Shown: positions 6,727 through 57,966 of the stretch, piece by piece
Numbering within the stretch: the stretch's first letter is position 1
Layout of the letters: the number at the start of each line of letters is the position of its first letter
NCBI GenBank assembly: GCA_015233155.1
Contig: JADFYG010000033.1
Coordinates: forward strand, 1,093 to 65,092
DNA: 64,000 bases
Source: Candidatus Rifleibacteriota bacterium
GTDB lineage: Bacteria; Muiribacteriota; Ozemobacteria; Ozemobacterales; Ozemobacteraceae
Direction of reading: 5' to 3'
The notes under the pieces: generated by a model
What the model was told of the DNA's origin: nothing
The model's database searches: none
What the model saw: only the letters and a program-made list of their open reading frames with translations
Made by a program: the position numbers and the translations under genes

Positions 6727-7347
6727 TCAGACAGCTTCGATACGCTTCAGATCGCTCTTGATCTCACGGTAGAACAACGGCCATGTCTTCTCAGAAAAGG
6801 CCAGTTCGGAAAAATTATCCCCGAGCTTTTTCAGGAATTCCAAAAACGAAATCCGCTGAAAATCAGGCTCGAGAGTTTTGACATGTTTAAAACTCGCAAA
6901 AAAAGGCTCCAGATCATGAAGTCCAACCGAACGAGCGGCTATTCCAAAAGCTCCATCAATTGCGGATCGATCGGAAAGCCTCTGCGGCATAATCTGCGCC
7001 CCAAGAATTGTCCCGATCATTTCACCCTGAAGTTCGATGGGTACCGCAAATATCAGGAAGCCTGCCCAGCATATATTTACAAACGGTGTCTTTCGCCGAA
7101 GTAACTTTTCCTCAATGTTCGCGTATGTGCGGCGACAACGTAAACGTCCAGGCTCCGTGCCACGCAAAATAGAGCATGGTCCGCCAAAATAATCGGTCTT
7201 GCACACCACTTCGCCGGACGAAGACCGAAGAGAAAGCGGTACACCGAGGAATTCTTCAAGTCGCCGCAGAATATCCGGAACCTGTCCCTTGGCGAAGGTC
7301 ACCGATGTATTCACATTAGGAACAACAGGGATCTTGCCTTCACTCAT
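6727..7347 (-). CDS. PocR-domain ligand-sensing protein
   Basis: This 206-residue protein looks like a stand-alone PocR sensory domain. Supporting marks are the cysteine cluster in FGGPCSILRGTEPGRLRCRR, the NICWAGFLIFAVPI strand and GEMIGTILGAQIM. PocR domains are known as small-molecule sensors (for example in propanediol regulation) and usually sit ahead of an HTH or kinase domain. Here no output domain is visible, only a C-terminal helical tail. A good ribosome-binding site (GAGGTGG) precedes the ATG. Its place between phosphate butyryltransferase and an amidohydrolase suggests metabolite sensing, but the ligand is unknown. Confidence 0.7.
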   Translation of the reverse strand: MSEGKIPVVPNVNTSVTFAKGQVPDILRRLEEFLGVPLSLRSSSGEVVCKTDYFGGPCSILRGTEPGRLRCRRTYANIEEKLLRRKTPFVNICWAGFLIFAVPIELQGEMIGTILGAQIMPQRLSDRSAIDGAFGIAARSVGLHDLEPFFASFKHVKTLEPDFQRISFLEFLKKLGDNFSELAFSEKTWPLFYREIKSDLKRIEAV

Positions 7348-7389: not shown

Positions 7390-8304
7390 TCAGGAACCGC
7401 CGGAACGCGCGTTTCTCCACAATGTCACACCGAGCAGCAGAGAGAAGAACTTTGTCTCGTTGCTATCGGAACGCGACGTAAGAACCACCGGACACTGCGC
7501 ACCGAAAACCACTCCGCCAAGATTTGCGCCGGAAAAATATTGAAGAGACTTGTACAAAACGTTGCCGACCTCGATACGCGGAACAACCAGAATGTCTGCG
7601 TCACCTTGAATTTTTCCCTTGTATTTCTTGATACGCGCCGATTCGGCACTTACTGAAAGATCGAGTGAAACGGGCCCTTCCACGATAGCTTCCATGCAGC
7701 CGGAAAACTTTGCCGCGACCGCTTGCGCCAGAACAGTACCGGGAATTTTATCAGAAACTTTTTCATTCGCGGACAAAAGGGCGACCTTCGGAATGTCAGG
7801 CTTGAAAAGGTGAAATGCCTCTATCGCATTGCGAACGATCTTTTCCAGAGCATCCGGATCGGGAGCGATATTGATCCCAACGTCGGTAATCATACGCATT
7901 CCAGGCTGCTCTTTCAGCTCGAAAAAAGTTATATGAGAAAGCAGAGGGCTTTTCTTCAATCCAGCCTCGGAGTTCAGTATGGCCTTCAAAATCGTCGATG
8001 TCGGAACAAGCCCCTTCATCAACAAATCCACCCGGCCTTCACGAACCATGCTGACGGCGATTTTACAGGCTTTCACCGAGTCGGTTTCATGAACAATCGT
8101 GACGTTCTTCGATGAAGCCAAATCGGCGTAGATGACGCTGATCTTATCTGAATCACCGATCAATACGGCGTCGATAAACCCATCCCTCACTCCGCGCTCT
8201 ACAGCATACGCAACCGCTTCGTCTTCGGCCATCGGAACCGCAATACGAGCTTTGCCAACTTTCCCGGCATTTTTCGTCAGATCCTCGAAAAAAGAACTGG
8301 TCAT
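7390..8304 (-). CDS. ptb: Phosphate butyryltransferase-like phosphotransacylase
   Basis: This 304-residue member of the phosphate acetyl/butyryltransferase family converts an acyl-CoA plus phosphate to an acyl-phosphate. Length and motifs (LLMKGLVPTSTILKAILN, DVGINIAPDPDALEKIVRNA, PKVALLSANEKVSDKIPGT) favour the Ptb branch over Pta. With a butyrate kinase it would give ATP from butyryl- or branched-chain acyl-CoA; the only such kinase seen is the fusion at 55960. It stands next to acyl-CoA dehydrogenase and ETF genes, which fits short-chain acyl metabolism. AAAGGAT lies upstream of the ATG. Confidence 0.85.
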   Translation of the reverse strand: MTSSFFEDLTKNAGKVGKARIAVPMAEDEAVAYAVERGVRDGFIDAVLIGDSDKISVIYADLASSKNVTIVHETDSVKACKIAVSMVREGRVDLLMKGLVPTSTILKAILNSEAGLKKSPLLSHITFFELKEQPGMRMITDVGINIAPDPDALEKIVRNAIEAFHLFKPDIPKVALLSANEKVSDKIPGTVLAQAVAAKFSGCMEAIVEGPVSLDLSVSAESARIKKYKGKIQGDADILVVPRIEVGNVLYKSLQYFSGANLGGVVFGAQCPVVLTSRSDSNETKFFSLLLGVTLWRNARSGGS

Positions 8305-8350
8305 TCCCGTTCTATCCTTTCGCCTGCTGAACCGGCCTGTATTTCCCTGG

Positions 8351-9493
8351 TCATTTCAGGACGTGCGATGCGATTACCATACGCTGAATCTCGCTCGTGC
8401 CCTCATACAGTTCGGTAATTCGCGCATCACGATAAAATCTTTCAACCGGATAATCCTTGATGAAACCGTAACCGCCATGAATCTGGATCGCGGCATGACA
8501 AACGCGAGTCGCCATTTCTGATCCATACAGTTTCGCCATCGCCGCATCCTTTGCATATCTTTTCTTTTGATCTTTCAACCATGCGGCTTTCCAGGTCAAA
8601 AGACGTGCAGTCTCTATTTCCATCTGCATCTCGACTAATTTATGAGCCAGTCCCTGAAAGTCGATCAAAGGCGATCCAAACTGTTTGCGCTCCCGAGCGT
8701 ATTTTAATGCCGCCTCGAAGGCGGCTCGCGCAATCCCGACTCCCTGCGCGCCAACTCCTACGCGACCACCGTCGAGGGTGTCCATGGCAATTCGGAAGCC
8801 GCGTCCAGGCCCTCCGATGATGTTCGCTTTTGGAATGCGACAATTCTGAAAAACCAGTTCAGCTGTATTGGAAGCCCTGATGCCAAGCTTATTCTCTTTG
8901 ACCCCGACAGTAAAACCCGGCGTTCCCTTCTCAACGATAAACGCCGTCAAACCGCGAATCTTCGCGGCCCGATCCGTACTGGCTATTACAATCGCGAAAT
9001 CGGCCACTCCACCATTGGAAATAAAGATCTTGGTACCATTAAGTATCCATTCGTCACCATCGAGAACAGCGGTGGTTTCCTGGTTCGCCGAGTCTGAACC
9101 CGCGTTCGGCTCTGTCAATGCAAAGCAACAAAGTTTTTCGCCCCTCGCCAGAGGGGGAAGATACTTTTTTTTCTGCTCGTCACTGCCAAAATTGATGATC
9201 GGGCCCGCAACCAGCGAGTTCGTCAGTGACATGGTGACGCTCTGCGCCGCGCACGCCCGGGAAATCTCTTCAATAATAAGGCAATATGTCATTACGTCGG
9301 CGCCAGCACCGCCGTATTCCCGTGGAACTATAATACCCATATAGCCCTGCTTCGCGATTTTGGAGGTCAGTTCACGCGAAAATTCCTGCTTTTCATCGAG
9401 TTCTCCCGCAATCGGAAGGATATGAGTCTCGGCAAACTCGCGAGCCGACGCGCGGATCAATTCCTGTTCCGGAGTAAGTTTAAATGTGATCAC
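8351..9493 (-). CDS. Acyl-CoA dehydrogenase (short-chain type)
   Basis: This FAD enzyme of 380 residues should oxidise an acyl-CoA to the 2-enoyl-CoA and pass electrons to the adjacent EtfAB. It has the FAD/substrate motif CCFALTEPNAGSDS, and near the C-terminus ELYEGTSEIQRM with the canonical catalytic glutamate of the butyryl/medium-chain group. A GTG start at 9493 is chosen over the longer ORF: AAGGAGG lies 8 bases upstream and GTGA overlaps the etfA stop, which implies coupling. The close gene order with a ferredoxin-fused EtfA suggests a butyryl-CoA-dehydrogenase/Etf complex. Chain-length specificity is not certain. Confidence 0.9.
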   Translation of the reverse strand: MITFKLTPEQELIRASAREFAETHILPIAGELDEKQEFSRELTSKIAKQGYMGIIVPREYGGAGADVMTYCLIIEEISRACAAQSVTMSLTNSLVAGPIINFGSDEQKKKYLPPLARGEKLCCFALTEPNAGSDSANQETTAVLDGDEWILNGTKIFISNGGVADFAIVIASTDRAAKIRGLTAFIVEKGTPGFTVGVKENKLGIRASNTAELVFQNCRIPKANIIGGPGRGFRIAMDTLDGGRVGVGAQGVGIARAAFEAALKYARERKQFGSPLIDFQGLAHKLVEMQMEIETARLLTWKAAWLKDQKKRYAKDAAMAKLYGSEMATRVCHAAIQIHGGYGFIKDYPVERFYRDARITELYEGTSEIQRMVIASHVLK

Positions 9494-10692
9494 CGGACAG
9501 CCTCCTTCTTCAGACTTCGAATCTCGGCCGCCAGCAATGGGATAACCTGATGAAGGTCTCCGATGATGGCCACATCGGCCGCTTTCACCATCGGGCACTC
9601 CGGATCACGGTTTACCGCAACAACATAGTCCGCACCGGCTATTCCCGCAAGATGCTGAACGGCGCCGCTGATTCCGCAGGCGATATATAACCTGGGACTG
9701 ACGGACTTGCCCGTCTGTCCAATCTGATGGTAATGTGCCACCCAGCCGGACTCGACAGCAGCTCGTGAAGCCCCAACCTGACCGCCGAAAGCATCCGCAA
9801 GTTCTTCGATAAGTCCAAACTGGGCTTTGCCCCCCACCCCACGTCCACCGGCAATGATGACTTCTGCTTCGGAAAGATCGGCTCGCAGAGTCGTTTCCAA
9901 TGCGACCTCTCTAATTATCGCCGTCAGATCAGCTGGTTTCAGGCTGATCTTCATTTTCTTCACTTCGCCCTTACGGCTTTTGTCCGCCGGAAGAGGTTTC
10001 ATCACTCCAGGGCGCACAGTCGACATCTGCGGTCTGTGATTCGGGCACACGATCGTCGCCATGACGTTTCCGCCGAACGCCGGACGAGTCTGCAACAGCA
10101 AGCCAGTTCCCTCTTCGATATCCAGGGATGTACAGTCAGCGGTCAGCCCGGTCCGGAGTCGATTCGCCACGCGCGGAGCCAGATCGCGACCCGTCGGAGT
10201 AGCACCTATGAGTACAAGTTCAGGCTTTGCCTCGCGAATGACGCCTGTCAGCACACGTGCATAAGGCGCCGTGCGATACTCCACAAGCTCGGGATCTTCG
10301 ACCAGATATACCATGTCCGCGCCATGAGCGATCAACTGCGCCGCGCTCTCATCAAGTCGCATGCCTGCAACCACGGCGCTTAAAGTTGCACCCCTTGCAT
10401 CGGCCAGAGCGCGACCACGCCCCAGAAGCTCAAGACCCACCTTGGCGAGGACTTCCCCACGACGCTCCGCAAAAACCATAACACCCTTGAAACCTGACAG
10501 ATCCGTCTTTCCGACACTCCCGGCCACGGAGTCGATCGCCTTGAAAGAGCAGCTGTCGACGCATGAACCACAATGAACACAAGAAGCGTTCAGAAAGGCC
10601 TTCCTGTCGATCATGTCAATGGCATCATAGGGACAAGCCCTGAGGCAGGCGGAACAACCAACGCACTTCTCTTTATTTATGCGAATCGTCAT
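9490..10692 (-). CDS. etfA: ETF alpha subunit with N-terminal ferredoxin domain
   Basis: This 400-residue protein joins two [4Fe-4S] motifs (CVGCSACLRACPYDAI near residue 10 and CVHCGSCVDSCSFKAI near residue 38) to a full EtfA with the C-terminal FAD-binding signature (GASRAAVESGWV, QIGQTGKSVSPRLYIACGISGA). Ferredoxin-fused EtfA proteins are known from ETF-linked dehydrogenase complexes, including electron-confurcating and -bifurcating ones such as CarDE and LctBC. It is followed by a coupled acyl-CoA dehydrogenase gene and preceded by etfB. Bifurcation is possible but not shown. Confidence 0.93.
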   Translation of the reverse strand: MTIRINKEKCVGCSACLRACPYDAIDMIDRKAFLNASCVHCGSCVDSCSFKAIDSVAGSVGKTDLSGFKGVMVFAERRGEVLAKVGLELLGRGRALADARGATLSAVVAGMRLDESAAQLIAHGADMVYLVEDPELVEYRTAPYARVLTGVIREAKPELVLIGATPTGRDLAPRVANRLRTGLTADCTSLDIEEGTGLLLQTRPAFGGNVMATIVCPNHRPQMSTVRPGVMKPLPADKSRKGEVKKMKISLKPADLTAIIREVALETTLRADLSEAEVIIAGGRGVGGKAQFGLIEELADAFGGQVGASRAAVESGWVAHYHQIGQTGKSVSPRLYIACGISGAVQHLAGIAGADYVVAVNRDPECPMVKAADVAIIGDLHQVIPLLAAEIRSLKKEAVR

Positions 10693-10704
10693 ATCTTCTC
10701 CCGG

Positions 10705-11496
10705 TCAGACCAGGCCTCTTTCATGTATCAGACCGACGAGTCTGAGCACGCAGTCCTGTGCGTCACCAGTAAGTAAAAATCCGTTGCCGCGTGGAGACGG
10801 CTGGAAAGTGCGCCGCACCTGAGTTGGTGACCCCCTCAAACCTATATCATCGACAGGGGCCCCGATGTATGAGGCATCCCAGACATGAAACGGCCGCTCG
10901 CGATAGGCGTCCATGCAGCCACGCAGGGTGGGAATCCTTGGGCGATTGGCCTCTTTGAGGCATGTAACCAGTGCCGGCAGCGGAACCGCGATGGTCTGAA
11001 AACCAACATCAGTCATTCGTTTCACCAGCAACGTCTTTGAATTTTCAAGTCTGGCACCCACCGAATACGTGACCTGCGGAATATTCAGGAACTCGGCCAG
11101 TTGTGGCCCGACCTGGGCTGTATCGCCATCGATAGCCTGTCGCCCACAGATGATCAGATCGAAAACGCCGATTTTTTTCACGGCATGATAAAGTGTACAA
11201 GCCGTTGCAAGCGTATCCGCGCCGGCAAACGCCCGATCGGACAACAGAACAGCTTCATCCGCGCCCATGGCAAGAACCTGGCGAAGAGCCACCTCTGCTT
11301 GCGGCGGCCCCATACTGATTACGGTGACCTTGCCTCCGCCAGCCTCATCGCGTAAGGAGAGACCCAGTTCGACAGCGTGACGGTCCTCCGGATTCACTAT
11401 GCTGGGAACTCCCTCGCGAATCAGAGTACCGGTAATCGGATCTATCCGGACGTCATTAGTGTCTGGAACCTGTTTGATGGTAACGATGATGTTCAT
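10705..11496 (-). CDS. etfB: ETF beta subunit
   Basis: This 263-residue beta subunit pairs with the ferredoxin-fused EtfA encoded 12 bases downstream. The EtfB marks are present: MNIIVTIKQVPDTNDVRI at the start, the DGDTAQVGP nucleotide-binding loop, and LPALVTCLKEANRPRIPTL, the dehydrogenase-docking recognition loop region. It binds a second FAD or AMP depending on the subtype. A REP-like palindrome separates its start from the preceding acyl-CoA dehydrogenase gene, so it may have its own promoter. Confidence 0.93.
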   Translation of the reverse strand: MNIIVTIKQVPDTNDVRIDPITGTLIREGVPSIVNPEDRHAVELGLSLRDEAGGGKVTVISMGPPQAEVALRQVLAMGADEAVLLSDRAFAGADTLATACTLYHAVKKIGVFDLIICGRQAIDGDTAQVGPQLAEFLNIPQVTYSVGARLENSKTLLVKRMTDVGFQTIAVPLPALVTCLKEANRPRIPTLRGCMDAYRERPFHVWDASYIGAPVDDIGLRGSPTQVRRTFQPSPRGNGFLLTGDAQDCVLRLVGLIHERGLV

Positions 11497-11536
11497 CGAT
11501 GGTCCTTGTTATAAATACATATTATATTCATTCCGT

Positions 11537-11559
11537 GGGGTGGGGTTGAAACCCGCCCC
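11537..11559. repeat. REP-like palindrome
   Basis: GGGGTGGGGTT-G-AAACCCGCCCC is an imperfect inverted repeat followed by TACAA. It matches the perfect palindrome GGGCGGGTTTGAAACCCGCCC with CGTACAA at 24775-24795. It sits between two minus-strand genes, touching the stop codon of the upstream acyl-CoA dehydrogenase. Confidence 0.5.
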
Positions 11560-12701
11560 TACAACCGCGTCGAAACGAGATTACGCAATGTTTCTGAAGT
11601 ACCGAAACCGATCTTCAGAAAACGTGCATCCCGAAACAATCGCTCGCTGAGGCTTCCGCGAAGGTATCCCTGACTGCCCATTGCCTGGACAGCAAAATCC
11701 GTGACTGCGCACGCACTCTCAGTCGCGAAGATCTTTGCCATGGCAGCGAAGGTATAAACCGGATTTTTCTCGGCCGCCTGCTCGACTGCACGCCAGACAT
11801 GCATCCGACTGCCGTCGATACGTACAGCCGCGTCGGAAAACCGCCACTGGAGACTCTGGAACGTGTTCAAAGATTTTCCCTGCTGTTTCTTTTTTTTGGT
11901 ATGTTGTGCGGCCTCATCGAAGGCGCCCTGGGAGATCCCGACTGCGATGGCACCTATAGCTATCCGCATCTCATGCATTATCTGGTTGTACAAATCATAC
12001 CCGAAACCGTGAACCCCGGCCAGCGCATCGGCGGAAACCATCACTTCGCGAAATTCAACCGGTGCCGCCTCGAGGCCGGCCATACCCATTGTCAGAAGAG
12101 CGTCTCCAATTCTGACACCGGGTGTATCACGCGGAACAAAAAACATGGATGCGGACGGAGGCTCTTTGCCCTCGAGCCTGGCCATGGTCAGAAATGCGCG
12201 GGCGCGTCCGGCCTGATTGACATAGGATTTGCCACCCCTTATCGTGAAACTTCCGTCACTGTCCGCGGGGCAAGCGCTACAGACGGTCTCGATACTGTGC
12301 AAGTCCGATCCGGCGGCCGACTCCGTTGCCGCTATCGGAAACAACATACGGAAGGAAGCGGCTTCACGCGCCCATTCCTGACGCTGGGGATGGTTTGATA
12401 CACGCAATAAAGCCCTGATACCGACAATGACCTGCTGAGCCATCAATATCGCAACTACAGGAGAAGTCTTCCCGACTTCTTCCAATAGAAGCGCAAGGCT
12501 CATCAGACCACATCCTTCGCCCCCCAGCTCCGCAGGTAGAAAGGGCTTGAGCAGTTCGCTTTTTTCGAGCACGTCAAGCAGCTCGTCAAAAAGGGAAGCA
12601 TTTTGATCGACCTTCTGTGAAAGCGGGCCGATGCGATTTTTCGCAAGGTCCCGCCAGATGTCCAGGAGTTCCTTGTCCCGGGATTCGAGTTCAAGATTCA
12701 C
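11559..12701 (-). CDS. Acyl-CoA dehydrogenase paralog with altered active-site loop
   Basis: This 380-residue acyl-CoA dehydrogenase homolog keeps the overall fold (FPIAATESAAGSDLHSIETV, QAMGSQGYLRGSLSERLFRDARF) but reads FLKIGFGTSETLRN where the canonical catalytic glutamate (YEGTSE) would be. On the helix used by isovaleryl-CoA dehydrogenase it reads HEMRIAI, with the Glu one residue off the LDLER pattern. Its chemistry may differ from simple alpha,beta-dehydrogenation. GTG start with AAAGGA upstream. It is on the same strand as etfBA and the other dehydrogenase. Confidence 0.82.
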   Translation of the reverse strand: MNLELESRDKELLDIWRDLAKNRIGPLSQKVDQNASLFDELLDVLEKSELLKPFLPAELGGEGCGLMSLALLLEEVGKTSPVVAILMAQQVIVGIRALLRVSNHPQRQEWAREAASFRMLFPIAATESAAGSDLHSIETVCSACPADSDGSFTIRGGKSYVNQAGRARAFLTMARLEGKEPPSASMFFVPRDTPGVRIGDALLTMGMAGLEAAPVEFREVMVSADALAGVHGFGYDLYNQIMHEMRIAIGAIAVGISQGAFDEAAQHTKKKKQQGKSLNTFQSLQWRFSDAAVRIDGSRMHVWRAVEQAAEKNPVYTFAAMAKIFATESACAVTDFAVQAMGSQGYLRGSLSERLFRDARFLKIGFGTSETLRNLVSTRL

Positions 12702-46535: not shown

Positions 46536-47582
46536 ATGGTTGGTATTTCAGGTTATGGGACCCAAATTCCGCGGTACAGAATAAAGGTCGAGGAAATTGC
46601 AAAAGTCTGGGGTACCGACGCCCCCGCTTACCGCAGAGGAATGAATTTAAACGAGAAATCCGTTCCGGCACCAGATGAAGATGTAGGAACGTTGTCCGTC
46701 AATGCGGCTTACAATGCGTTGGCAAGATCAGGCATTGCCCCCAAGGATATCGGGGCTGTCTACGTCGGCAGCGAATCTCATCCATATGCGGTGAAACCCA
46801 CCGGAACGATGGTCGCGGAAGCTATCGGAGCATGTCCACATGTACATACGGCATCTCTGGAATTCGCCTGCAAGGCCGGAACCGAAGGAATGTTCATCGG
46901 GACTCAGATGGTACAGGCCGGCAGAGTCGCGAATGTGCTTGCCATTGGCGCCGATACATCCCAGGGAGCCCCCGGAGACGCGCTTGAATACTCCGCAGCA
47001 GCCGGAGCCGCCGCTTTCGTGATCAGCACCAAAAATATCGTTGCGGAATTGCTCGATACAGATTGCTATATGACCGACACTCCTGATTTCTGGCGACGGC
47101 CTTATTCTCATTATCCAGCTCACGGCGGAAGATTCACCGGAGAACCCGCGTATTTCAAACATGTTGAAGGGGCGACAAATGCAATGCTCGCAAGAGCAAA
47201 GATGAAGCCTTCCGACTTTGATTACGTCATTTTCCATCAGCCGAACGGAAAATTCCCCGTCGTCGTTGCCAAAAAGCTCGGATTCAAAGAACCACAGTAC
47301 AGGCATGGACTCTTAACGCCGGTTCTTGGCAATACATACTCTGGTTCCTCCCCATTGGGCCTGGCTGCCACCCTTGATGAAGCCAAGCCGGGACAATTGA
47401 TTCTCCTGGTTTCTTACGGTTCCGGCGCTGGAAGCGACGCCTTTATTTTCAAAACCACGAAACGCCTTCTTGAAGTTCGCGATCTTGCCCCAAGAGTCAG
47501 AAAGCAACTCGATGAACACAAATATTATCTGGAATACGGGCAATACGCCAAAAATCGCGGAAAAATCCTGAGAGCGGAGTAG
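46536..47582 (+). CDS. Hydroxymethylglutaryl-CoA synthase, archaeal type
   Basis: This 348-residue thiolase-fold enzyme interconverts HMG-CoA with acetyl-CoA plus acetoacetyl-CoA. Catalytic residues are visible: Glu in [14 protein letters not shown], Cys in [14 protein letters not shown], His in [11 protein letters not shown], and the [13 protein letters not shown] loop. Length and sequence match the archaeal-type branch. A strong AGGAGG lies before the ATG. It is followed by a thiolase and a DUF35 gene, the trio known in archaea to form one complex that channels acetoacetyl-CoA. Here it sits among leucine-catabolic genes. Confidence 0.92.
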
Positions 47583-47593
47583 GAGAAAGAAAT

Positions 47594-48751
47594 ATGCGAG
47601 ATGTAGCAATTGTTGGCGTTGGACTCATGAAATGGGGAGAACTCTGGGAAAAATCGATTCGCGACCTGTGTGTCGAGGCTGCTTTGAGCTGCTTCGAGGA
47701 TGCGGGAAATGATAAGATAGATTCCATCGTTGTCGGAACAATGGCCAGCGGCCTATTGACCGGCCAGGAACACATGGCCAATATGGTTCCGGATTATCTT
47801 GGAAAAAAACACGTTCCAGCCATGCGCGTTGAATCGGCATGTTGTTCAGGCAGTCAGGCGGTTCGCACCGCCTTCATGGAAGTCGCCTCCGGAATGTCGG
47901 ACTGCGTTCTCGCTCTCGGAGTCGAAAAAATGACTGATGTGAGCGGAAATGACGCTACCTATGCATTGGCAACCGCTTCCGATCAGGAATTCGAAGCTTT
48001 TCACGGCGTTACGTTTCCCGGCCTTTATGCAATGATGGCCAGAAAGCACATGGAACAATACGGTACGACAAGAGAGCAACTTGCTGAAGTTTCTTCGAAA
48101 AATCACAGAAACGGAAGCCTGAATCCTCATGCTCAGTACCCGTTCCCGATGACCCGCGAGCAGGTAATGAATTCCACCCTGGTTGCGGATCCGCTTCGTC
48201 TGATGGACTGTTCCCCAATCACGGACGGAGCAGCCGCGGTTCTTCTTGTACCGGCAACTGATGCGAAAAAGTATAAAAAACATGGAATGGTCGTGATTTC
48301 CGGAGTCGGCCATGCCACGGACACCATCGCACTATGTCAGCGCAAGGATATGCTGAAAATGGAAGCGGTGACCCTGGCTGCAAAAGCGGCGTTAAAAATG
48401 GCCGGAAAAACAATAAAAGACGTTAATTTTGCTGAGGTTCATGACTGCTTTACAATCGCGGAAATAATGATCATGGAAGCCCTTGGCATTGTAAAACCCG
48501 GCCAAGGCGGACCGGCAACCCTCAAGGGACTGACCGCCCTGGAAGGCAAATTCCCGGTCAATCCTTCTGGCGGTTTGAAGTCTAAGGGGCATCCGGTGGG
48601 AGCCACTGGCGTTGCCCAGATTTGTGAAGCGGTTTATCAATTACGGGGCGAAGCCGGAAAACGACAGGTAAAAAATGCGAAAGTCGGACTGACACAAAAC
48701 ATGGGCGGAACCGGCGGAACGAGCGTAGTTCACATTCTGGAGGCTAAATAA
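47594..48751 (+). CDS. Acetoacetyl-CoA thiolase, archaeal-complex type
   Basis: This 385-residue thiolase has Cys in [25 protein letters not shown], and [14 protein letters not shown] near the C-terminus with [12 protein letters not shown]. It is the partner of the adjoining HMG-CoA synthase in the archaeal-type thiolase/HMGCS/DUF35 complex. It starts 11 bases after the synthase stop, and its TAA shares a base with the DUF35 ATG. Direction of flux is not set by sequence. Confidence 0.92.
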
Positions 48752-49149
48752 TGTCCATACCACGACATTGGAGAGAAATACCCCGACGATATCGCCTGGA
48801 AGCAGGCAAGTGCAAAAAATGTAAAGTTATCAACTTTCCCAGCCGGCTCGTTTGCCCGGAATGCGGAGGCAAGACATTCGAAACCGTTAAGCTCTCCGGA
48901 AAAGGGAAGCTGGATACCTTCACCATCATCCGGGTTGCCCCGGAAGGCTTCGGCGACGAGGTTCCATACGCAGTCGGAATCATCGACCTGAAGGATGGCG
49001 TTCGACTCATGGCCCAGATCACCGATTGCGATCCGACTACATTGAAAACCGGCGACAAATTAGTAGCCAAGTTCCGTAAAGTCCAGGAGGACGGGAAAAA
49101 CGGAATAATCAAGTACGGCTACAAATTTGTTCCTGACGTAGGAGTTTAA
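48751..49149 (+). CDS. DUF35 OB-fold zinc-ribbon scaffold protein
   Basis: This 132-residue protein has an N-terminal zinc ribbon (CKKCKVINFPSRLVCPECGG) and an OB-fold (KLSGKGKLDTFTIIRVAPEGF). DUF35 proteins bridge thiolase and HMG-CoA synthase in the archaeal complex and provide a shared CoA-binding site. The gene overlaps the thiolase stop (TAATG) and is followed by a strong terminator, closing this transcription unit. Confidence 0.92.
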   Translation: MSIPRHWREIPRRYRLEAGKCKKCKVINFPSRLVCPECGGKTFETVKLSGKGKLDTFTIIRVAPEGFGDEVPYAVGIIDLKDGVRLMAQITDCDPTTLKTGDKLVAKFRKVQEDGKNGIIKYGYKFVPDVGV

Positions 49150-49221: not shown

Positions 49222-50829
49222 ATGCGCCGCATCCAAACAAAGATTCAGCCGAGTTCCCCGGAATTCAGGGAGAACGTCGATTATCACAAGGGATTAGCCA
49301 GAGAGTTACAGGAAAAGCTTCAGAAGTTTGCTCAGGGCGGTCCCAAACATGCCCGTGAAAAGCATACCGCACGAGGCAAACTGCTGGTCAGAGACAGATT
49401 AGCTCACCTTTTCGACCCGAACACCCCATTTCTTGAATTATGTCCATTAGCGGCGCTTAGTATGTATGAGGATTCCGCCCCGGCCGCTGGAATGGTCACC
49501 GGCATCGGAGTCGTGAATGGCCGGGAAGTCATGATTGTAGCCAATGACGCCACAGTCAAGGGCGGCACATATTTCCCGATGACGATAAAGAAGCATCTTC
49601 GAGCCCAGGAAGTAGCCATGGAAAACAATCTTCCATGCATCTACCTCGTGGATTCCGGTGGAATTTTCCTGCCTCACCAAAGTGAGACGTTCCCGGACAG
49701 AGAACATTTTGGTCGAATTTTCTATAACCAGGCTCGAATGTCAGCCATGGGAATTCCTCAGATTTCAGTCGTTATGGGGTCATGTACCGCCGGTGGAGCC
49801 TATGTTCCGGCAATGAGCGACGAGAGTGTCATTGTCAAGAACCAGGGCACTATTTTCATTGGAGGCCCGCCACTCGTTAAGGCGGCCACGGGTGAAATCG
49901 TGACCGAGGAAGAGTTGGGCGGAGCGGATGTTCATTGCCGCATCTCCGGCGTTGCTGATCATTACGCGGAAAACGACGCTCACGCAATTTCAATCGCGCG
50001 TGACATCGTTGAGGCCTTGGCTCCACAGAATCGCACCGATATAGGCAGAATGACTCCGGAAGACCCTTTCTATGATCCGGAAGAACTTTACGGAATCGTC
50101 CCAAAAGATGATAGAAAGCCGTTCGATGTCAGGGAAATAATTGCGCGTATCGTCGATGGAAGCCGTTTTCAGGAGTTCAAGGCCCTGTATGGTTTGACCG
50201 TTGTCTGCGGCTTTGCCAGAATAATGGGATATCCGGTCGGAATAATCGGGAATAACGGAGTCCTCTTCTCTGAATCCTCTCTGAAAGCAGCTCATTTTGT
50301 AACATTGTGTTCTATGCGAAAAATTCCGCTCATTTTCCTTCAGAATATCACTGGTTTCATTGTCGGAAAACAGTATGAGCATGGAGGAATTGCCAGAGAC
50401 GGCGCAAAACTGGTTCATGCGGTTTCCAATGCGGACGTACCTAAATTCACGATCGTCATCGGGGGCTCCTATGGCGCAGGAAATTACGGTATGTGCGGTC
50501 GCGCATTCGGTCCCAGATTCATGTGGATGTGGCCCAACTCAAAGATTTGTGTCATGGGCGGCAAGCAGGCTGCCGGCGTGCTTTCGACTGTAAAAGTTGA
50601 GCAACTGAAAAAGCAGGGACAGGAAATCACTCCTGAAATGCTCGAACAAATCCAGGCGCCGATTCTTGCCAGATACGAAGAAGAGGCCAACTGCTATTAT
50701 TCGACCGGGAGAATCTGGGACGATGGAATAATCGACTTGAAGAACACCAGAAATATATTGGGGCTTGGAATTCCTGTTACATTGAATAGCCAGATTCCCA
50801 ATTATAAACTCGGAATTATGAGGATGTGA
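49222..50829 (+). CDS. mccB: Methylcrotonyl-CoA carboxylase carboxyltransferase subunit
   Basis: This 535-residue carboxyltransferase moves CO2 from biotin to 3-methylcrotonyl-CoA, giving 3-methylglutaconyl-CoA. Length and motifs fit the MCC beta branch: [46 protein letters not shown] (split here by family alignment), [17 protein letters not shown] and [24 protein letters not shown] lies upstream of the ATG. It starts a five-gene unit with hydratase, biotin carboxylase, carrier and acyl-CoA dehydrogenase, the liu-type leucine pathway layout. Confidence 0.93.
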
Positions 50830-50833
50830 GTAA

Positions 50834-51637
50834 ATGACTGCAGAAAAGGCTTTTGAAACGATAATTTATCAACAGGAAGGACCTGTTGCACGGGTAACTC
50901 TCAACAGGCCCGTGGTCCATAATGCATTCAATAGCGCCATGATAGAAGAACTGATCCGAATTTTCACTTCTATCTCTAATGATAAATCAGTAAGGGTCGT
51001 AGTATTTGGCGGATCCGGTAAATCATTCTGCGCCGGGGCCGATCTGAACTGGATGCGGGAAATAATAAAATTTTCCTATGAGGAAAACCTTCGCGACTCA
51101 AACCGCGTCGCGGATATGATGGAAGCGATCAATTTCTGCCGTAAACCGGTAATAGCTAAAGTACAAGGTGCTACTCTCGGCGGCGGAACAGGACTTGCAG
51201 CCGCCTGCGACCTTGTTATCGCATCTGAAGCCGCTTTTTTCAGTTTATCAGAGGTGAAGATCGGTCTTGTTCCGGCATGTATTGCCCCTTACGTCATAGC
51301 ACGAATCGGCCCCGGAAAAGCCCGTGAATGTTTCATAACCGGCGAACGCCTTTCGGCATTAAAGGCTGTTCAAATCGGCCTTGCCACAGAAGTAGTCTCC
51401 GCGGACAAACTCGACAGTCGGGTAAACGAAAGAGTCGCCGAAATTCTCAATAACGGTCCGGAAGCAATTGCGGAGGCCAAGGCTCTCGTGGCGTCAGTCA
51501 CCGGAATGCCCATCGCTGAAGCGAAAAAACATACTGCGGAAATCATTGCGCGGCTTCGAATCAGCCCGGAAGGCCAGGAAGGAATGGACGCCTTCCTGAG
51601 CATGCGCAAACCTAAATGGGTAGTGGCAAATGATTAA
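50834..51637 (+). CDS. Methylglutaconyl-CoA hydratase-like crotonase
   Basis: This 267-residue crotonase has SGKSFCAGADLNWMRE and ATLGGGTGLAAACDLVIASE with the FSLSEVKIGLVPA segment. The ADLNWM element and the place between MCC subunits are typical of 3-methylglutaconyl-CoA hydratase (LiuC-like), which makes HMG-CoA. It starts 4 bases after mccB and overlaps the biotin carboxylase gene by 8 bases. General enoyl-CoA hydratase activity is the alternative. Confidence 0.88.
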   Translation: MTAEKAFETIIYQQEGPVARVTLNRPVVHNAFNSAMIEELIRIFTSISNDKSVRVVVFGGSGKSFCAGADLNWMREIIKFSYEENLRDSNRVADMMEAINFCRKPVIAKVQGATLGGGTGLAAACDLVIASEAAFFSLSEVKIGLVPACIAPYVIARIGPGKARECFITGERLSALKAVQIGLATEVVSADKLDSRVNERVAEILNNGPEAIAEAKALVASVTGMPIAEAKKHTAEIIARLRISPEGQEGMDAFLSMRKPKWVVAND

Positions 51638-53117
51638 AAAGGTTCTTATAGCAAATCGATCTGAAATTGCCGTTCGAATTATCAGAGCTGCCAGAGAAGA
51701 AGGTATTTCGTCCGTTGCCGTTTATTCCGATGTGGACAAGGATGCTCTTCATGTCCGAATGGCCGATGAAAGTTACAATATAGGCCTTCCGCCTGCAAAA
51801 GAGAGTTATCTTAACGCGGATAAAATAATTGAAACCGCCTTGAAGGCAAATTGTCAGGCAATTCATCCGGGATATGGCTTTTTAGCGGAAAATGCTGATT
51901 TCGCAAAAAAAGTTGAGGATGCAGGCCTGATATTCGTCGGACCGTCTCATGCATCGGTTTTAGCTATGGGCGATAAAATTCAGGCTCGTAACCTGATGAC
52001 TAAAGCCGGGGTTCCGGTTGTACCAGGCATTCTTGCAAAAATTGATTCGTTCAGTCATGCAAAAAAAGAGGCCGAACAACTTGGGTATCCGATACTTGTA
52101 AAAGCCGCCGGAGGCGGAGGAGGAAAAGGGATACGGCTGGTCAGCAATTCGAACGAGCTCGAAGCCGCATTGGAAGCCGCCGCCCGGGAGGCGACTTCCG
52201 CATTCAGTGACCCCAGAGTTTATCTGGAAAAATATCTGGAGAAGCCCAGGCATATCGAAGTACAAGTTCTTGCTGATTCATTTGGAAACACCGTCCATCT
52301 GTTCGAAAGAGAATGCTCAATCCAGAGGCGCCATCAAAAGGTCATAGAAGAATCTCCCTCTTTCATCGTGGATGATGATTTGCGGGCGAAAATGGGCAAT
52401 GCGGCTGTCCGGGCTGCAAAAGCGGTAAATTATCGAAGTGCCGGAACCATCGAATTTCTGGTCGATCAGAATAAAAACTTTTTTTTCCTCGAGATGAACA
52501 CCCGCATCCAGGTCGAGCACCCTTTAACTGAGTTGATTACCGGCCTCGATCTTGTTCGGCTCCAGTTCAGGATCGCCAATGGCGCGAAAATTCCGTTTAC
52601 ACAGGATCAGATCCATAGACACGGACATGCTATTGAATGCCGGATTTATGCGGAAGATCCCGAGAACAACTTCCTCCCCTCCCCCGGAAAACTGCACCTG
52701 GTCAGAATGCCGCAAGGCCCCGGAATTCGCGTGGACTCCGGAATTGAGACCGGCCTCGAAATATCAATTTATTATGACCCTATTCTCAGCAAAATAATTG
52801 CATGGGGAGAAAACCGGGAAACAGCGCGGCAGAGAATGCTTATCGCCCTCCGGGAAACAGTAGTATTAGGCGTACAAACCCCGGTCTCATTCCTGCTGGA
52901 TGTCCTGAATGACCCGAATTTTATATCCGGACATACGCATACGGGTTTCCTGGAAGAACATGGCTTCATAAACAAGCCGCCGACGGACAAAGAGGTTCCC
53001 CTGGAAGTCCTCGTCGCCGCAGCGTTGTATCGACCCGAAAGAGCTGTTGCCGCGGAAGGAAAAACTCTTTCCTCGACACCATGGACCGAAATCGGGCCAT
53101 GGAAAATCGGAGGATGA
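51630..53117 (+). CDS. mccA: Biotin carboxylase subunit of the acyl-CoA carboxylase
   Basis: This 495-residue ATP-grasp enzyme carboxylates biotin. Diagnostic parts are the N-terminal KVLIANRSEIAVRIIRAARE, the glycine loop KAAGGGGGKGIRLV, the FFLEMNTRIQVEHPLTE active-site block and AIECRIYAEDPENNFLPS. Unlike most MCC alpha subunits, the biotin carrier is not fused but is encoded by the next gene 3 bases downstream. Specificity is inferred from the neighbours. Confidence 0.93.
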   Translation: MIKKVLIANRSEIAVRIIRAAREEGISSVAVYSDVDKDALHVRMADESYNIGLPPAKESYLNADKIIETALKANCQAIHPGYGFLAENADFAKKVEDAGLIFVGPSHASVLAMGDKIQARNLMTKAGVPVVPGILAKIDSFSHAKKEAEQLGYPILVKAAGGGGGKGIRLVSNSNELEAALEAAAREATSAFSDPRVYLEKYLEKPRHIEVQVLADSFGNTVHLFERECSIQRRHQKVIEESPSFIVDDDLRAKMGNAAVRAAKAVNYRSAGTIEFLVDQNKNFFFLEMNTRIQVEHPLTELITGLDLVRLQFRIANGAKIPFTQDQIHRHGHAIECRIYAEDPENNFLPSPGKLHLVRMPQGPGIRVDSGIETGLEISIYYDPILSKIIAWGENRETARQRMLIALRETVVLGVQTPVSFLLDVLNDPNFISGHTHTGFLEEHGFINKPPTDKEVPLEVLVAAALYRPERAVAAEGKTLSSTPWTEIGPWKIGG

Positions 53118-53120
53118 CCA

Positions 53121-53648
53121 ATGGAAAGAAGTTTCAAGGTAGGGGAAAAGGTATATATAGTTCAGATTTCAAGCCAGACACAGGCCCCGGAAGCGGGAGA
53201 ATGCGCCATCAAGGCAACCGTTGACGGCAAGGAAATAGAAATTTCCCTGAATCGCGTTGCGAATGGAGAATTCATAATCAACAAGGCGGGAAAGCAGACT
53301 CGTCTTTTTCTGGCCCAGGGAAAATCCGGAGAGATTTTTGTTCATCGACAGGGCAGGGTTTATACCGTCGCTCCTGTGGAAAAAGATTTCGGAGCTGGTG
53401 AAAATGCTGGCCCGGTCAGCAGTCGTCTTGTCGCGACGATGCCTGGAAAGATTCTGAAAGTTCTGGTTGAACTTGGGCAAACTGTTGAAAAGAACCAGCC
53501 TGTTTTAATCATGGAATCAATGAAAATGGAAATGACTCAAACCGTTCACTTTCACGGGAAAGTTGAAGAGATCTGTGTTAAAGCCGGAGATCAGGTCAAT
53601 GCCGGAGCTTTGATGGTCCGCATCGAACCGACGCCGAAGGACAATTAA
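53121..53648 (+). CDS. Biotin carboxyl carrier protein
   Basis: This 175-residue protein ends in a biotinyl domain with the modification motif MESMKMEM, the biotin lysine at about residue 135. The first ~95 residues (EISLNRVANGEFIINKAGKQ and on) form a beta-rich linker domain like the BT domain of MCC/PCC alpha subunits. It supplies the swinging arm between the biotin carboxylase and MccB. Confidence 0.92.
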   Translation: MERSFKVGEKVYIVQISSQTQAPEAGECAIKATVDGKEIEISLNRVANGEFIINKAGKQTRLFLAQGKSGEIFVHRQGRVYTVAPVEKDFGAGENAGPVSSRLVATMPGKILKVLVELGQTVEKNQPVLIMESMKMEMTQTVHFHGKVEEICVKAGDQVNAGALMVRIEPTPKDN

Positions 53649-53680
53649 CCACAGATGAATACAGATTATAAGGAGTAAAT

Positions 53681-54868
53681 ATGGATTTTGATTGGACAAA
53701 CGATCAGATTGAATTTCGGAAAATGGCCAGAGATTTCGCGGAGCGCGAAATTCGACCAGTTGCCGCATGGATTGAGGGGCGGGATCAACCAAATGGGTTA
53801 GGAAACTTTCCCAGAGAGCTCCTTCAAAAAATGGGCAAAGCAGGGTTCATGAGTTGTCTTCATGACAAGGAGTTCGGAGGCAATGGAAAAGGGTTGCTGT
53901 ACGAATGTATTATCGCCGAAGAATTCGGAGCTGTCAGCCCTGCCGCTGAGCTGGCCCGACTGGTTTCATGCGCCCTTTTTGGAATGCCACTGGCAATGTT
54001 CGGAACGAAAGAGCAGAAAGCCGAATTTCTGCCAAAGATTCTGGCCGGAGAATTAATCGGCGCAATCGGAATTACCGAACCCAACGTGGGCTCAGATACT
54101 GCGGGAATGAAAACGACAGCTATACTCGATGGCGATACATGGGTAATAAACGGGGAAAAACGTTTCATTACGAATGGCAGTCAGGCCGATGTATTAAGCC
54201 TTTTTGCAATCACGGATCCAACAGTAAAAGCACATAAAGGAATGAGCACATTTCTTTTTGAAACGAAAACTCCCGGCTTTTCAGTAGTCAAGAATTATGA
54301 AATGCATGGTATGCATGGAATGCGTGTTTCTCATCTGGCTTTCAATAACTGCAGAATTCCCAGGCATCGCCTGCTTGGCCAGTTAAACCAGGGTTTCAAA
54401 CAGCTGATGATGGAACTCGACAAAGAGCGTATAGCCCTTGCGGCGGAATCTCTCGGCATGGGAAGAGCCTGCATTGAAGCCGCGCTGAAATTTTCGCAGG
54501 AAAGAGTGCAATTTGGTAAGCCAATTAAGGATTTCGAGGGAATATCCTTCAAAATTGCCGAAAATGCAACCTTGCTGGAAGCATCTCAACTGATGGTTCA
54601 TCGTGCAGCCTGTAAAGCCGACAAAAATTTACCTTGTACAAAAGAAGCCGCTATGGCGAAGCTTTTCGCATGCGATGAAGTCATCAGGATTTGTGACGAC
54701 TGCATCCAGATTCTTGGCGGAACCGGGTACACCTGCGATAGTTTCGTTGAACAATTTTACCGGGATGCGCGTCTGATGTCGATCGGCGGCGGAACTCGCG
54801 AAATCATGAAATATCTTATTTCCCGTGAAGTTTATTCACAAGCCGGCTATTCTTCAAAGGGCGCCTGA
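53681..54868 (+). CDS. Isovaleryl-CoA dehydrogenase-type acyl-CoA dehydrogenase
   Basis: This 395-residue flavoenzyme has GAIGITEPNVGSDTAGMKTT and a FITNGSQADVLSLFAITD region. At the usual catalytic site it reads LMSIGGGTREIMKYL, with no glutamate, but helix G carries LDKERIALAAE, where isovaleryl-CoA and long-chain dehydrogenases keep their catalytic Glu (LDLER in human IVD). That, and the link to MCC genes, supports isovaleryl-CoA oxidation to 3-methylcrotonyl-CoA. A ribosome-binding site (AAGGAG) precedes the ATG. Confidence 0.88.
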   Translation: MDFDWTNDQIEFRKMARDFAEREIRPVAAWIEGRDQPNGLGNFPRELLQKMGKAGFMSCLHDKEFGGNGKGLLYECIIAEEFGAVSPAAELARLVSCALFGMPLAMFGTKEQKAEFLPKILAGELIGAIGITEPNVGSDTAGMKTTAILDGDTWVINGEKRFITNGSQADVLSLFAITDPTVKAHKGMSTFLFETKTPGFSVVKNYEMHGMHGMRVSHLAFNNCRIPRHRLLGQLNQGFKQLMMELDKERIALAAESLGMGRACIEAALKFSQERVQFGKPIKDFEGISFKIAENATLLEASQLMVHRAACKADKNLPCTKEAAMAKLFACDEVIRICDDCIQILGGTGYTCDSFVEQFYRDARLMSIGGGTREIMKYLISREVYSQAGYSSKGA

Positions 54869-54877
54869 AAACATAAA

Positions 54878-55942
54878 ATGGAAACATTTGAATTGATGCA
54901 TGGAGCAGGCCTGGAACAGATCATCTTTTTCAGGGAAGATTCGGTTGATTTAAAAGCGGTTGTAGCCATTCACAATACTCTCCTCGGGCCTGCGATCGGT
55001 GGTATACGGGTAATGGATTATCCAGACCAGGAAAGCATGTTGAAGGATGCTACAGAGCTGGCACGCGAGATGACCCTGCGCACTGGTCTTTCCGACTGCG
55101 ACTTCGGAGGAGGCAGCGCCATACTCTGCGGAAACTCCAGGAAGGGCGAAGCTTATTTCCGGGCTTTCGGAAGATTTATCAATCGTCTGGCCGGCCAGTT
55201 CTATGCCATCATGGAAGTCGGAACAGACAGCAAGGATTTGAAACACATCAAAAGAGAAACAAACTACGTACTGGCGCTTCCCGAAGCTTTCGGAGGTATC
55301 GCCGACCCTACCAGCATTACTGCCCAGGGTCTTCTTCACGGTATCAGGGCCACTGCAAAAATAGTCTTCGGACAATCAAGTCTGGAAAATGTCACTTGTT
55401 TAGTGCAAGGTGCCGGGCGAATTGGAAGCAACATAGTCGAGCTGCTCGTCCAGGCAAAGGCAAAACTTCTGGTCAGCGATAAAAATTACGACAGGATCAA
55501 GAACATCCAGGACCGCTATCCCGAAGTGTCCATGGTCCGCCCCGAGGAAGTCGTGGATACAAAGTGCGATTTGATCGTTCCGTGTGCTCTCGGAAATCTG
55601 GTTAATTCCCAGACTGTAGAACGCCTTAAATGTCGTGCTATCGCAGGTGGTGCCAGTAATATAATTCCGGATATGGAAACCGGCGAGCTTCTGCACAAAC
55701 ACAATATCCTGTATACACCTCATTTTTTAATTGATTCAGGAGAAGTAATTCAGGCTGATTATGAGTTGAAAAAGCGTTCACGCACTCTCCTGCAATCCGC
55801 AATCGGAGAGATTTACGGACGCACCCTTGAGCTTCTTGAATCGGCAAGGGAGAACAGGGAACCGCCTGTCAAAACAGCGTTGAGATTGGCAACAGAACGT
55901 TTCGCCAATATAGGCAGTATCGGCCGCCGGATTTCCATCTGA
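54878..55942 (+). CDS. Leucine dehydrogenase homolog lacking catalytic lysines
   Basis: This 354-residue protein aligns end to end with leucine/valine/phenylalanine dehydrogenases (LKAVVAIHNTLLGPAIGGIRV, RAFGRFINRL, DCDLIVPCALGN-like block, HFLIDSGEVIQADYEL). The active-site signature is changed: MTLRTGLSDCDFGGGSAI replaces the MTYKNAAAGLNLGGGKTV of Bacillus LeuDH. The substrate lysine 68 is Arg and the catalytic lysine 80 is Ser, with the same numbering. The later catalytic Asp (ITAEDVGT) appears as Glu (AIMEVGT). The NAD loop is VQGAGRIGSN. It is unlikely to be a normal deaminating dehydrogenase; it may be a sensor, a scaffold or a new enzyme. Confidence 0.88.
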   Translation: METFELMHGAGLEQIIFFREDSVDLKAVVAIHNTLLGPAIGGIRVMDYPDQESMLKDATELAREMTLRTGLSDCDFGGGSAILCGNSRKGEAYFRAFGRFINRLAGQFYAIMEVGTDSKDLKHIKRETNYVLALPEAFGGIADPTSITAQGLLHGIRATAKIVFGQSSLENVTCLVQGAGRIGSNIVELLVQAKAKLLVSDKNYDRIKNIQDRYPEVSMVRPEEVVDTKCDLIVPCALGNLVNSQTVERLKCRAIAGGASNIIPDMETGELLHKHNILYTPHFLIDSGEVIQADYELKKRSRTLLQSAIGEIYGRTLELLESARENREPPVKTALRLATERFANIGSIGRRISI

Positions 55943-55959: not shown

Positions 55960-57966
55960 ATGAAAAGCAGTAAGAGTTTCCTTATTCTCGTTATAAATCC
56001 TGGTTCTACCTCCACAAAAATCGGAATCTTCGAAGATGAACTCTGCAAGTCTGAAAAGATACTTCGACATAGTTCCACCGAGCTGGAGAAATTCGAGAAA
56101 ATATGGGATCAATATGAGTTTCGTAAGCGGGAAATTCTGGCTTTTCTGAAGTCTACCAACGTCGATCTTACTAAATTTCATTGCGTCGTAGGACGCGGTG
56201 GGCCGCTTAAACCAATAGAAAGCGGCACATATCGCGTCGATGAAAGAATGATCAACGACCTGCGATGCGGTATCCAGGGGCAACACGCTTCAAATCTCGG
56301 CGGTGTCCTCGCCTATGGCATAGGCTGGGATTATTCCATCCCCTCCTTCATTGTCGATCCTATTTCAGTCGATGAATTGGAGCCTGTTTCACGTTACTCC
56401 GGCATTGCCGAAATCCCTCGATACAGCCTGGTTCACGCACTCAATATCAAGGCTACGGCAAGAAAAGTCGCCAGGGATATCAAACGCCCGCTTGAAGATT
56501 TGAATCTCATCGTCGCACATCTGGGCGGCGGAATCACCGTCGCCGCGCTGAAAAAAGGGCGCATTGTCGATGTAAATAACGGACTTTGCGAGGGACCTTT
56601 CACTCCGGAACGTTCCGGGTCAGTGCCCCTGATTCCGCTCGTCGAAATGTGTTTCTCCGGGAAATACGACAAAAAGAGTATATTGAAGAAAATTGTCGGG
56701 AAGGGCGGACTGACAAGTTATCTCAATACAAACAGCTGCGCGGAAGTCGAAGCGCTCATCCGCGCAGGCAACACCCGCGCAAAGATCATTTTTGAAGCGA
56801 TGGCCTACCAGATTTCCACTGAAATCGGCGCCCGAGCAGTGACACTTTTCGGAAAAGTCGATGGAATCATTCTGACTGGTGGCATGGCTCATTCCGCTAT
56901 GCTTACCAACCTGATCGAGGAACGTTGTTCTTTTCTGGGAAACGTTCAGCGTTACCCGGGGGAGGACGAATTGGAAGCCCTTGCCCTGGGCGGACTTCGC
57001 GTCCTTCGCGGAGAAGAGGCGGCCAAAACATACGATGCGAAAAAGAAAAGTATCGGTATTTTCTTCTCCGAGAATCTCCAGGAATATGATCTGGCAATAC
57101 AAGCCCTTGAAAGGGAGTTGCGTGAGCACGGGTATAGATTCCGGCAGAGCGACGAAAATCTGGAGATCATCGTTCGCAACGCCCACGGGAATACAGCCAT
57201 TATGCATGACGCCGCGGAGGAATTCCTTGCACGAAATGTCGATCTTGTCGTTTCTATAGGCTCCCCGGCCGCGGCCGCCACAAAGTTGTATTTGAAAGGG
57301 CATGTGATTCCCGTAATCTGCGTTGCCTGCTTCGACCCGGTGGTCATGGGGTTGGCTGAGAGTTATGCGGGGTCCGGCAACAATATTGCGGGCAACTGTT
57401 ATCGAATCGATATCGAGAATCAGATCAAAGAAGGGCTGTGCCCATTGATCCCGGGTCTGAAACGTTTAGGTGTAATTTATAAATCAGGAGAATTACAGTC
57501 AGAGATCCAACTGGACGAAACCAGGGAAGTGGGACAGAAATTGGGATTCGAAGTGATTTGTTTCGATTGCCAGACTCCCGAGGATCTGACCAGCGGCGCC
57601 GTATTTTTCCGCAAGCAGCTGGTTCAGGCTGTTTTCCTCGCATCCGACACAACTGCTGCCGGAGCAACCGAGCAACATTTAATGCCCTTGACCGAAAAAA
57701 TTCCGACTCTCTGCGCCCTCGAATCGACAGTAAAAAAGGGGGGGCTTGTCGGGCGGGTTGCCGACTGGGACTCTCTATGCAAAGACTCGGTCGGAATCGG
57801 CCTGGACATCCTGGAAGGTGCAGCTCCCGCAAAAATCCCGATCTCTCGAAATCCGAATGCAAGAACGATAATCAATCTTCGCACGGCTAAGATGCTCGGA
57901 ATCAAACCCTCAGAAGAATTCATGAAATCCGCGGAAGAAAAACTGTTCGCAGACGTGGAGCAATAG
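55960..57966 (+). CDS. Butyrate kinase fused to an ABC-type substrate-binding-like domain
   Basis: This 668-residue protein is two families in one frame. Residues ~1-360 are a butyrate/branched-chain fatty acid kinase (LVINPGSTSTKIGIFED, VGRGGPLKPIESGTY, IVAHLGGGITVAALKKGRIV, GIILTGGMAHS), which makes ATP from an acyl-phosphate. Residues ~370-668 match the TrpX/ABC_sub_bind fold (NVDLVVSIGSPAAAATKLYLK, DPVVMGLAESYAGSGNNIAGN, LIPGLKRLGVIYKSGE), normally an exported amino-acid-binding protein. No signal peptide or membrane helix is present, so the binding domain must be cytosolic and may regulate the kinase. It starts 17 bases after the dehydrogenase homolog. Confidence 0.88.
   Translation: MKSSKSFLILVINPGSTSTKIGIFEDELCKSEKILRHSSTELEKFEKIWDQYEFRKREILAFLKSTNVDLTKFHCVVGRGGPLKPIESGTYRVDERMINDLRCGIQGQHASNLGGVLAYGIGWDYSIPSFIVDPISVDELEPVSRYSGIAEIPRYSLVHALNIKATARKVARDIKRPLEDLNLIVAHLGGGITVAALKKGRIVDVNNGLCEGPFTPERSGSVPLIPLVEMCFSGKYDKKSILKKIVGKGGLTSYLNTNSCAEVEALIRAGNTRAKIIFEAMAYQISTEIGARAVTLFGKVDGIILTGGMAHSAMLTNLIEERCSFLGNVQRYPGEDELEALALGGLRVLRGEEAAKTYDAKKKSIGIFFSENLQEYDLAIQALERELREHGYRFRQSDENLEIIVRNAHGNTAIMHDAAEEFLARNVDLVVSIGSPAAAATKLYLKGHVIPVICVACFDPVVMGLAESYAGSGNNIAGNCYRIDIENQIKEGLCPLIPGLKRLGVIYKSGELQSEIQLDETREVGQKLGFEVICFDCQTPEDLTSGAVFFRKQLVQAVFLASDTTAAGATEQHLMPLTEKIPTLCALESTVKKGGLVGRVADWDSLCKDSVGIGLDILEGAAPAKIPISRNPNARTIINLRTAKMLGIKPSEEFMKSAEEKLFADVEQ

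Follow-up and report, generated by a model that had tools for sequence, protein, structure and literature searches.

A protein encoded in the window, that is, the whole 64,000-nucleotide stretch of Candidatus Rifleibacteriota DNA analysed here, has the fold and cofactor site of a leucine dehydrogenase (LeuDH) without its catalytic residues, and this LeuDH look-alike, judged from sequence, probably regulates a butyrate-kinase pathway or carries out new chemistry. It belongs to a group of paralogs, termed class A, in which the LeuDH base appears to be dispensable while the NAD site and a new pocket are kept. The gene and its informative codons are located as follows.

54878..55942, + strand: class-A LeuDH-like gene, the subject of this report (354 aa; ATG at 54878, stop codon 55940-55942)
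55079..55081, + strand: codon of R68 (Lys in LeuDH, carboxylate recognition; ungapped alignment)
55115..55117, + strand: codon of S80 (Lys, the general base in LeuDH; alignment to 1LEH)
55214..55216, + strand: codon of E113 in the protein's own numbering (D115 in LeuDH; alignment to 1LEH)
55409..55426, + strand: GAGRIG, an intact GxGxxG NAD loop within the Rossmann loop VQGAGRIG
55478..55489, + strand: D201 (NAD-type, D203 in LeuDH) to Y204 (206 in LeuDH)
55742..55744, + strand: codon of E289 (G290 in LeuDH), a gained acid

By its sequence, the protein is a member of the ELFV dehydrogenase superfamily, and PF00208 and PF02812 both match it (66.0 and 54.5 bits, against curated cut-offs of 23.4 and 25.3). 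The AlphaFold (AF2) model has a pLDDT of 94.4 and the full LeuDH fold; its comparison with LeuDH/PheDH structures gave Z values of 44–47, and the pocket distances used below are taken from the literature (PMC8766677). The features of LeuDH-type NAD binding, a GxGxxG loop and D203, are present as GAGRIG and D201, in agreement with the initial annotation, which had described the NAD loop as intact. The same annotation had called overall conservation high; identity is 63–67% within the protein's own clade and about 35% to its closest PDB relatives, the leucine dehydrogenases.

Alignment with the B. sphaericus enzyme (1LEH) runs with zero gaps up to residue 80, and the correspondence of K68 to R68 and of K80 to S80 is therefore unambiguous. 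The initial annotation was thus correct, in residues and coordinates, in placing Arg68 and Ser80 where LeuDH has its two lysines, and its substitution of Glu for the Asp of AEDVGT reappears in the 1LEH alignment as D115 = E113. Two further pocket changes were absent from it, namely N261 to S260 and G290 to E289; in addition, E114 of LeuDH is replaced by Met, and N262 is kept. At none of the pocket positions inspected does a lysine stand in for K68 or K80, and the relocated conserved lysine that the initial annotation had named as counting against its reading is thus absent there. In LeuDH, K80 acts as the general base, and Lys80 mutants show about 1.5% of the deamination activity and can be rescued by ammonia (PMC12018205); K68 and N261/N262 take part in recognising the carboxylate and in substrate specificity, D115 is an essential residue, and position 290 (G290) is listed at 6 Å or less from the substrate (PMC8766677). 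The window protein has Ser for K80, Arg for K68 and Glu for D115, and with N261 also lost and a Glu at 290, ordinary leucine dehydrogenase activity is, by extension from these mutant studies, very unlikely; R68 could still hold a carboxylate. Sequencing error or chance is ruled out as an origin of these residues, since R68, S/A80 and E115 recur in five loci of three other Riflebacteria genomes.

These five loci (Candidatus Riflebacteria) encode the nearest relatives, at the 63–67% identity given above, and more distant members of class A, in which positions 68 and 80 hold different residues, are spread over Riflebacteria and a further four phylum-level groups. Class A is marked by the loss of K68 and N261, an acid at 290, an aromatic residue at 206 and descent within one clade; its 37 sequences, all lacking K68, fall on one side of a branch with SH-aLRT 98 when columns 68, 80 and 115 are masked, and the window protein shares these marks (R68, E289, Y204, clade support 98). 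Class A is accordingly monophyletic in this tree and comprises five phylum-level groups of bacteria including Riflebacteria; the phenomenon extends well beyond the window operon and the Riflebacteria phylum. Among 386 genomes spread over the domain, class-A-like scores were obtained only in four already known non-Riflebacteria genomes, and the eight next-best sequences fetched from this search were canonical; a clade-specific scan of genome contigs gave matches in Riflebacteria only, and no relatives of the window protein were found in viral contigs. The open-access literature searched contained nothing relevant on inactive LeuDH paralogs or on LeuDH together with butyrate kinase, and class A is provisionally, as far as open-access papers go, undescribed.

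The pattern of kept, gained and drifting residues is the same throughout class A. The NAD-type D203 is kept in 37/37 sequences, G180 is invariant while K80 changes, and the second loop glycine, G182, is found in 35 of the 37; an Asp at 75 occurs in 36/37. The aromatic residue at 206 and the acid at LeuDH position 290 are present in all 37, the latter against 0 in classes B and C. Conversely, K80 changes four times inside class A according to the tree, position 80 being K, A, S or M and residue 115 being D, E, A or G; GGGS, by which the initial annotation had proposed to look for homologs, therefore fails as a defining mark in the wider class. Open frames are intact in all 37 rows, and pairwise dN/dS ranges from 0.05 to 0.28 where dS is unsaturated, values that come from other pairs because dS is saturated between the window protein and G013 and G005. 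Class A is under purifying selection, and the window gene is neither a decaying gene, as had already been claimed, nor an assembly error. Low dN/dS, the kept D203, the fixed residues at 290 and 206 and the drift at 80 and 115 together point to selection for the NAD site and a new pocket, not for the LeuDH base.

These observations bear on an ordinary explanation, that class A is the former LeuDH of a ptb-bcd-buk operon whose role has been lost and whose gene is now being lost. Bacillus bkd operons of the ptb-bcd-buk type hold LeuDH beside butyrate kinase in an order that resembles class-A loci, and many Riflebacteria lack class A altogether, both of which speak for such a relic. However, with low dN/dS, intact frames in 37 rows, gained residues fixed across phyla and duplicate copies retained in G005 and G011, this explanation is highly improbable.

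A more serious rival is that class A is a new enzyme. Built on the LeuDH scaffold and using NAD, it would run a K80-independent reaction whose substrate perhaps lacks an alpha-carboxylate, such as a hydroxy compound, amine, ketone or aldehyde belonging to the isovalerate pathway, and the acid at 290 would serve in binding or catalysis. The loss of K68 and N261 mirrors K68S/N261L, which turns LeuDH into an amine dehydrogenase (PMC8766677); the new acid is invariant at a position listed within 6 Å of the substrate, the NAD site is kept, and several class-A members retain both K80 and D115 (QKD, SKD, TKD). Yet the variation at positions 80 (K/A/S/M) and 115 (D/E/A/G) is unusual for an enzyme with one reaction, and the window protein lacks both K80 and D115 and may still be able to bind a carboxylate through R68 and N262. 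A new enzyme is the main rival of the regulatory role favoured below, and less probable than it.

The genomic setting of the gene supplies the candidate pathway.

46536..49149, + strand: archaeal-type HMG-CoA synthase, thiolase, OB-fold (ChsH2/DUF35-type) protein
49222..53648, + strand: carboxyltransferase, methylglutaconyl-CoA hydratase-like crotonase, biotin carboxylase and biotin carrier (methylcrotonyl-CoA carboxylase-like set)
53681..54868, + strand: acyl-CoA dehydrogenase (isovaleryl-CoA dehydrogenase-like by context)
55960..57966, + strand: butyrate kinase (about residues 7-360) fused to an ABC_sub_bind/TrpX-type substrate-binding domain (about 355-660)
7390..12701, - strand: phosphate butyryltransferase, two acyl-CoA dehydrogenases, ETF

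The combination of HMG-CoA synthase, carboxylase and dehydrogenase in one operon (46536-49149 and 49222-54868), together with the absence of an HMG-CoA lyase from the genes inspected, suggests leucine breakdown via a reversed HMG-CoA synthase, or alternatively isovaleryl-CoA synthesis. The set from HMG-CoA synthase to acyl-CoA dehydrogenase recurs in genomes of the G107 group (L079, L171, L178), where the genes of the methylcrotonyl-CoA carboxylase-like part keep their order. Butyrate kinase (Buk) directly follows class A in 14/14 Riflebacteria loci examined and directly adjoins it in the G172 and G117 groups too, the order in G117 being A-Buk-B, where B denotes a second paralog described below. 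In G011, G017 and the G172 group, A adjoins Buk and B lies beside or near phosphate butyryltransferase (Ptb); in G011 and G017, a cluster matching 7390..12701 has class A and Buk at one of its ends and class B adjoining Ptb. In the G107 group, the leucine operon of the window recurs with class A as its first gene, ahead of HMG-CoA synthase, thiolase, OB-fold protein, carboxylase, hydratase, acyl-CoA dehydrogenase and Buk, with class B last. The neighbour of class A in the G158 group is enolase, not Buk. The initial annotation had asked whether such homologs make up a clade linked to this operon; according to tree and neighbourhoods they do make up a clade, whose loci are linked with butyrate kinase and partly with leucine-catabolic genes as well.

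The kinase part of the fusion can be aligned from end to end with the butyrate kinase of T. maritima, and its sequence is intact; the substrate-binding domain, being fused to it, is apparently cytosolic. No such fusion was present in six other long or unusual butyrate-kinase loci fetched, and among the butyrate kinases examined it was found only in the R68 and GSE class-A lineage. Several further features were recorded around these genes. Directly 3' of the kinase, 57971-59224 encodes copper-amine-oxidase-N-like domains after a repetitive Ala/Ser/Thr/Ile-rich stretch, and a stand-alone PocR sensory domain (6727-7347) adjoins the ptb/ETF/acyl-CoA dehydrogenase cluster, as it also does in G017 and G008. 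Elsewhere, in G027 and G032, an extremely diverged LeuDH-like protein with V/K/S at 68/80/115 and no glycine loop lies directly downstream of butyrate kinase (L108:7687-8706 and L047:5612-6631), and a 1241-aa ORF in G033 (L044:5798-9523; G029 too) contains a canonical-residue ELFV domain inside a much larger protein.

Class B is defined as the second paralog in which K68 is kept and K80 is lost; its residue 80 is Q, S, A, C or E, and its residue 115 is often Gly. It is present in 23/34 class-A genomes, none of which (0/34) holds a canonical K68/K80 LeuDH, and it occurs without class A in two genomes, G100 and G309 (the latter 83% complete). The counts of A with B are non-independent, with about three trait changes on the tree, and a sign test on them is without power. 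Riflebacteria class B joins Riflebacteria canonical LeuDH in the tree with support of 96, which suggests repeated K80 loss in class B, although the AU test leaves room for a single class-B clade (p 0.39). The window's lineage, which consists of the R68 clade and G028 (joined at 86), yielded no class B. In the window genome, whose assembly is 84% complete, no canonical LeuDH was found elsewhere, and a glutamate dehydrogenase (on another contig, motifs intact) is its sole further ELFV protein; this enzyme or a class-IV aminotransferase, also present, could handle deamination instead.

The pairing of A and B invites a reading as residual LeuDH, in which A, with B where present, would form a hetero-oligomer for slow deamination of branched-chain amino acids; either one type of subunit would tune its partner, or solvent or free ammonia would take the place of K80. 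The two occur together in 23 genomes and miss different residues, as if complementary. Each LeuDH active site, however, sits within one subunit, and A and B therefore cannot simply complement each other; moreover, in some pairs both subunits are without K80 and D115 (e.g., QAA with KSG), and the window genome has no class B. Even with the ammonia rescue of K80 mutants (PMC12018205) in its favour, residual LeuDH is improbable and, like the relic, ranks below both the new enzyme and a regulatory role.

A regulatory role is the favoured explanation, since a pseudoenzyme sensor would be expected to combine drift at the catalytic residue with a fixed cofactor site. With a probability of roughly 0.45, class A would be a non-catalytic, metabolite-responsive and NAD(H)-binding subunit that acts on the isovaleryl-CoA/butyrate-kinase branch, with NAD binding, kinase contact and regulation as its predicted parts. 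In this scheme, a retooled LeuDH paralog keeps the LeuDH fold and very probably still binds NAD(H); since it has lost K80 as general base, K68 and N261 as carboxylate ligands and D115, normal oxidative deamination would be impossible, as expected from the mutant studies. NAD(H) and a branched-chain metabolite seated in the E289-bearing pocket would set the state of the protein, which would be passed to butyrate kinase, its usual genomic partner, thereby adjusting flux between isovalerate plus ATP and isovaleryl-CoA oxidation. In most other lineages, the disabled class B would be the likely hetero-oligomer partner; in the window lineage, B is missing and the kinase has gained a fused substrate-binding domain.

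Support for this regulatory role comes from K68R, K80S and D115E set against the published roles of K80, K68, N261/N262 and D115, from the drift of K80 while G180, D203, the acid at 290 and the aromatic at 206 are fixed across one clade, and from a dN/dS of 0.05–0.28 with canonical LeuDH in 0/34 genomes and class B in 23. It is further favoured by the position of A directly beside Buk (14/14 Riflebacteria loci, plus G172 and G117) and in the shared leucine operon of G107, by an intact kinase sequence, by the availability of other deaminating enzymes (glutamate dehydrogenase, class-IV aminotransferase), and by a precedent in the same superfamily, Thermus GdhA (PMC9570180). On the other hand, the G158 group has enolase, not Buk, beside class A, the Buk adjacency could go back to an ancestral operon of the ptb-bcd-buk type, the gained invariant pocket acid could equally mean new catalysis, and the A/B pairing is a co-occurrence for which the tree offers few independent contrasts (3 changes). 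A bolder version remains doubtful, namely that A (gained pocket acid) and B (catalytic lysine lost) form an NAD(H)/metabolite-sensing hetero-oligomer controlling butyrate kinase and phosphate butyryltransferase, with B replaced by the kinase-fused substrate-binding domain in the window lineage; if true, it would amount to a novel type of device for metabolic control.

Similarity-based annotation would label class-A proteins leucine dehydrogenases, predicting a deamination that they very probably do not catalyse. Class A is also a natural experiment, combining repeated loss of the catalytic lysine, a kept cofactor site, a fixed new pocket residue and one partner enzyme. A regulatory class A would represent a new control of the acyl-phosphate metabolism from which uncultured and probably fermentative bacteria gain ATP; a catalytic class A would be the counterpart in nature of the amine dehydrogenases engineered from LeuDH.

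Compared with known systems, the window protein has the full-length fold, NAD loop, D203 and N262 in common with leucine dehydrogenase (EC 1.4.1.9; PDB 1LEH, 6ACF, 3VPX), but it is without K68, K80, D115 and N261, and its position 290 is acidic and its position 206 aromatic. Tryptophan dehydrogenase ScyB (NF035922, PDB 5B37) is the best NCBIfam match and has the same fold; the score of 242.4 bits is far below the curated cut-off of 600, which places the protein outside that family. In engineered amine dehydrogenases (K68S/N261L LeuDH), the same two carboxylate-recognition positions are replaced as in class A, whereas K80 and D115 are kept there and both are lost from the window protein, and class A adds the acid at 290. 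The GdhA of Thermus thermophilus is a catalytically inactive glutamate dehydrogenase (GDH) paralog that serves as the regulatory subunit of a hetero-oligomeric GDH (PMC9570180). GdhA is paired with an active GDH subunit, unlike class A, for which no active paralog of the same subfamily is co-encoded: canonical LeuDH is missing from all 34 genomes, paralog B is disabled too, and the other ELFV protein of the window genome is a GDH. Class A nevertheless resembles GdhA (PMC9570180) in its superfamily, in being an apparently inactive paralog kept under selection and in its putative leucine-linked regulation.
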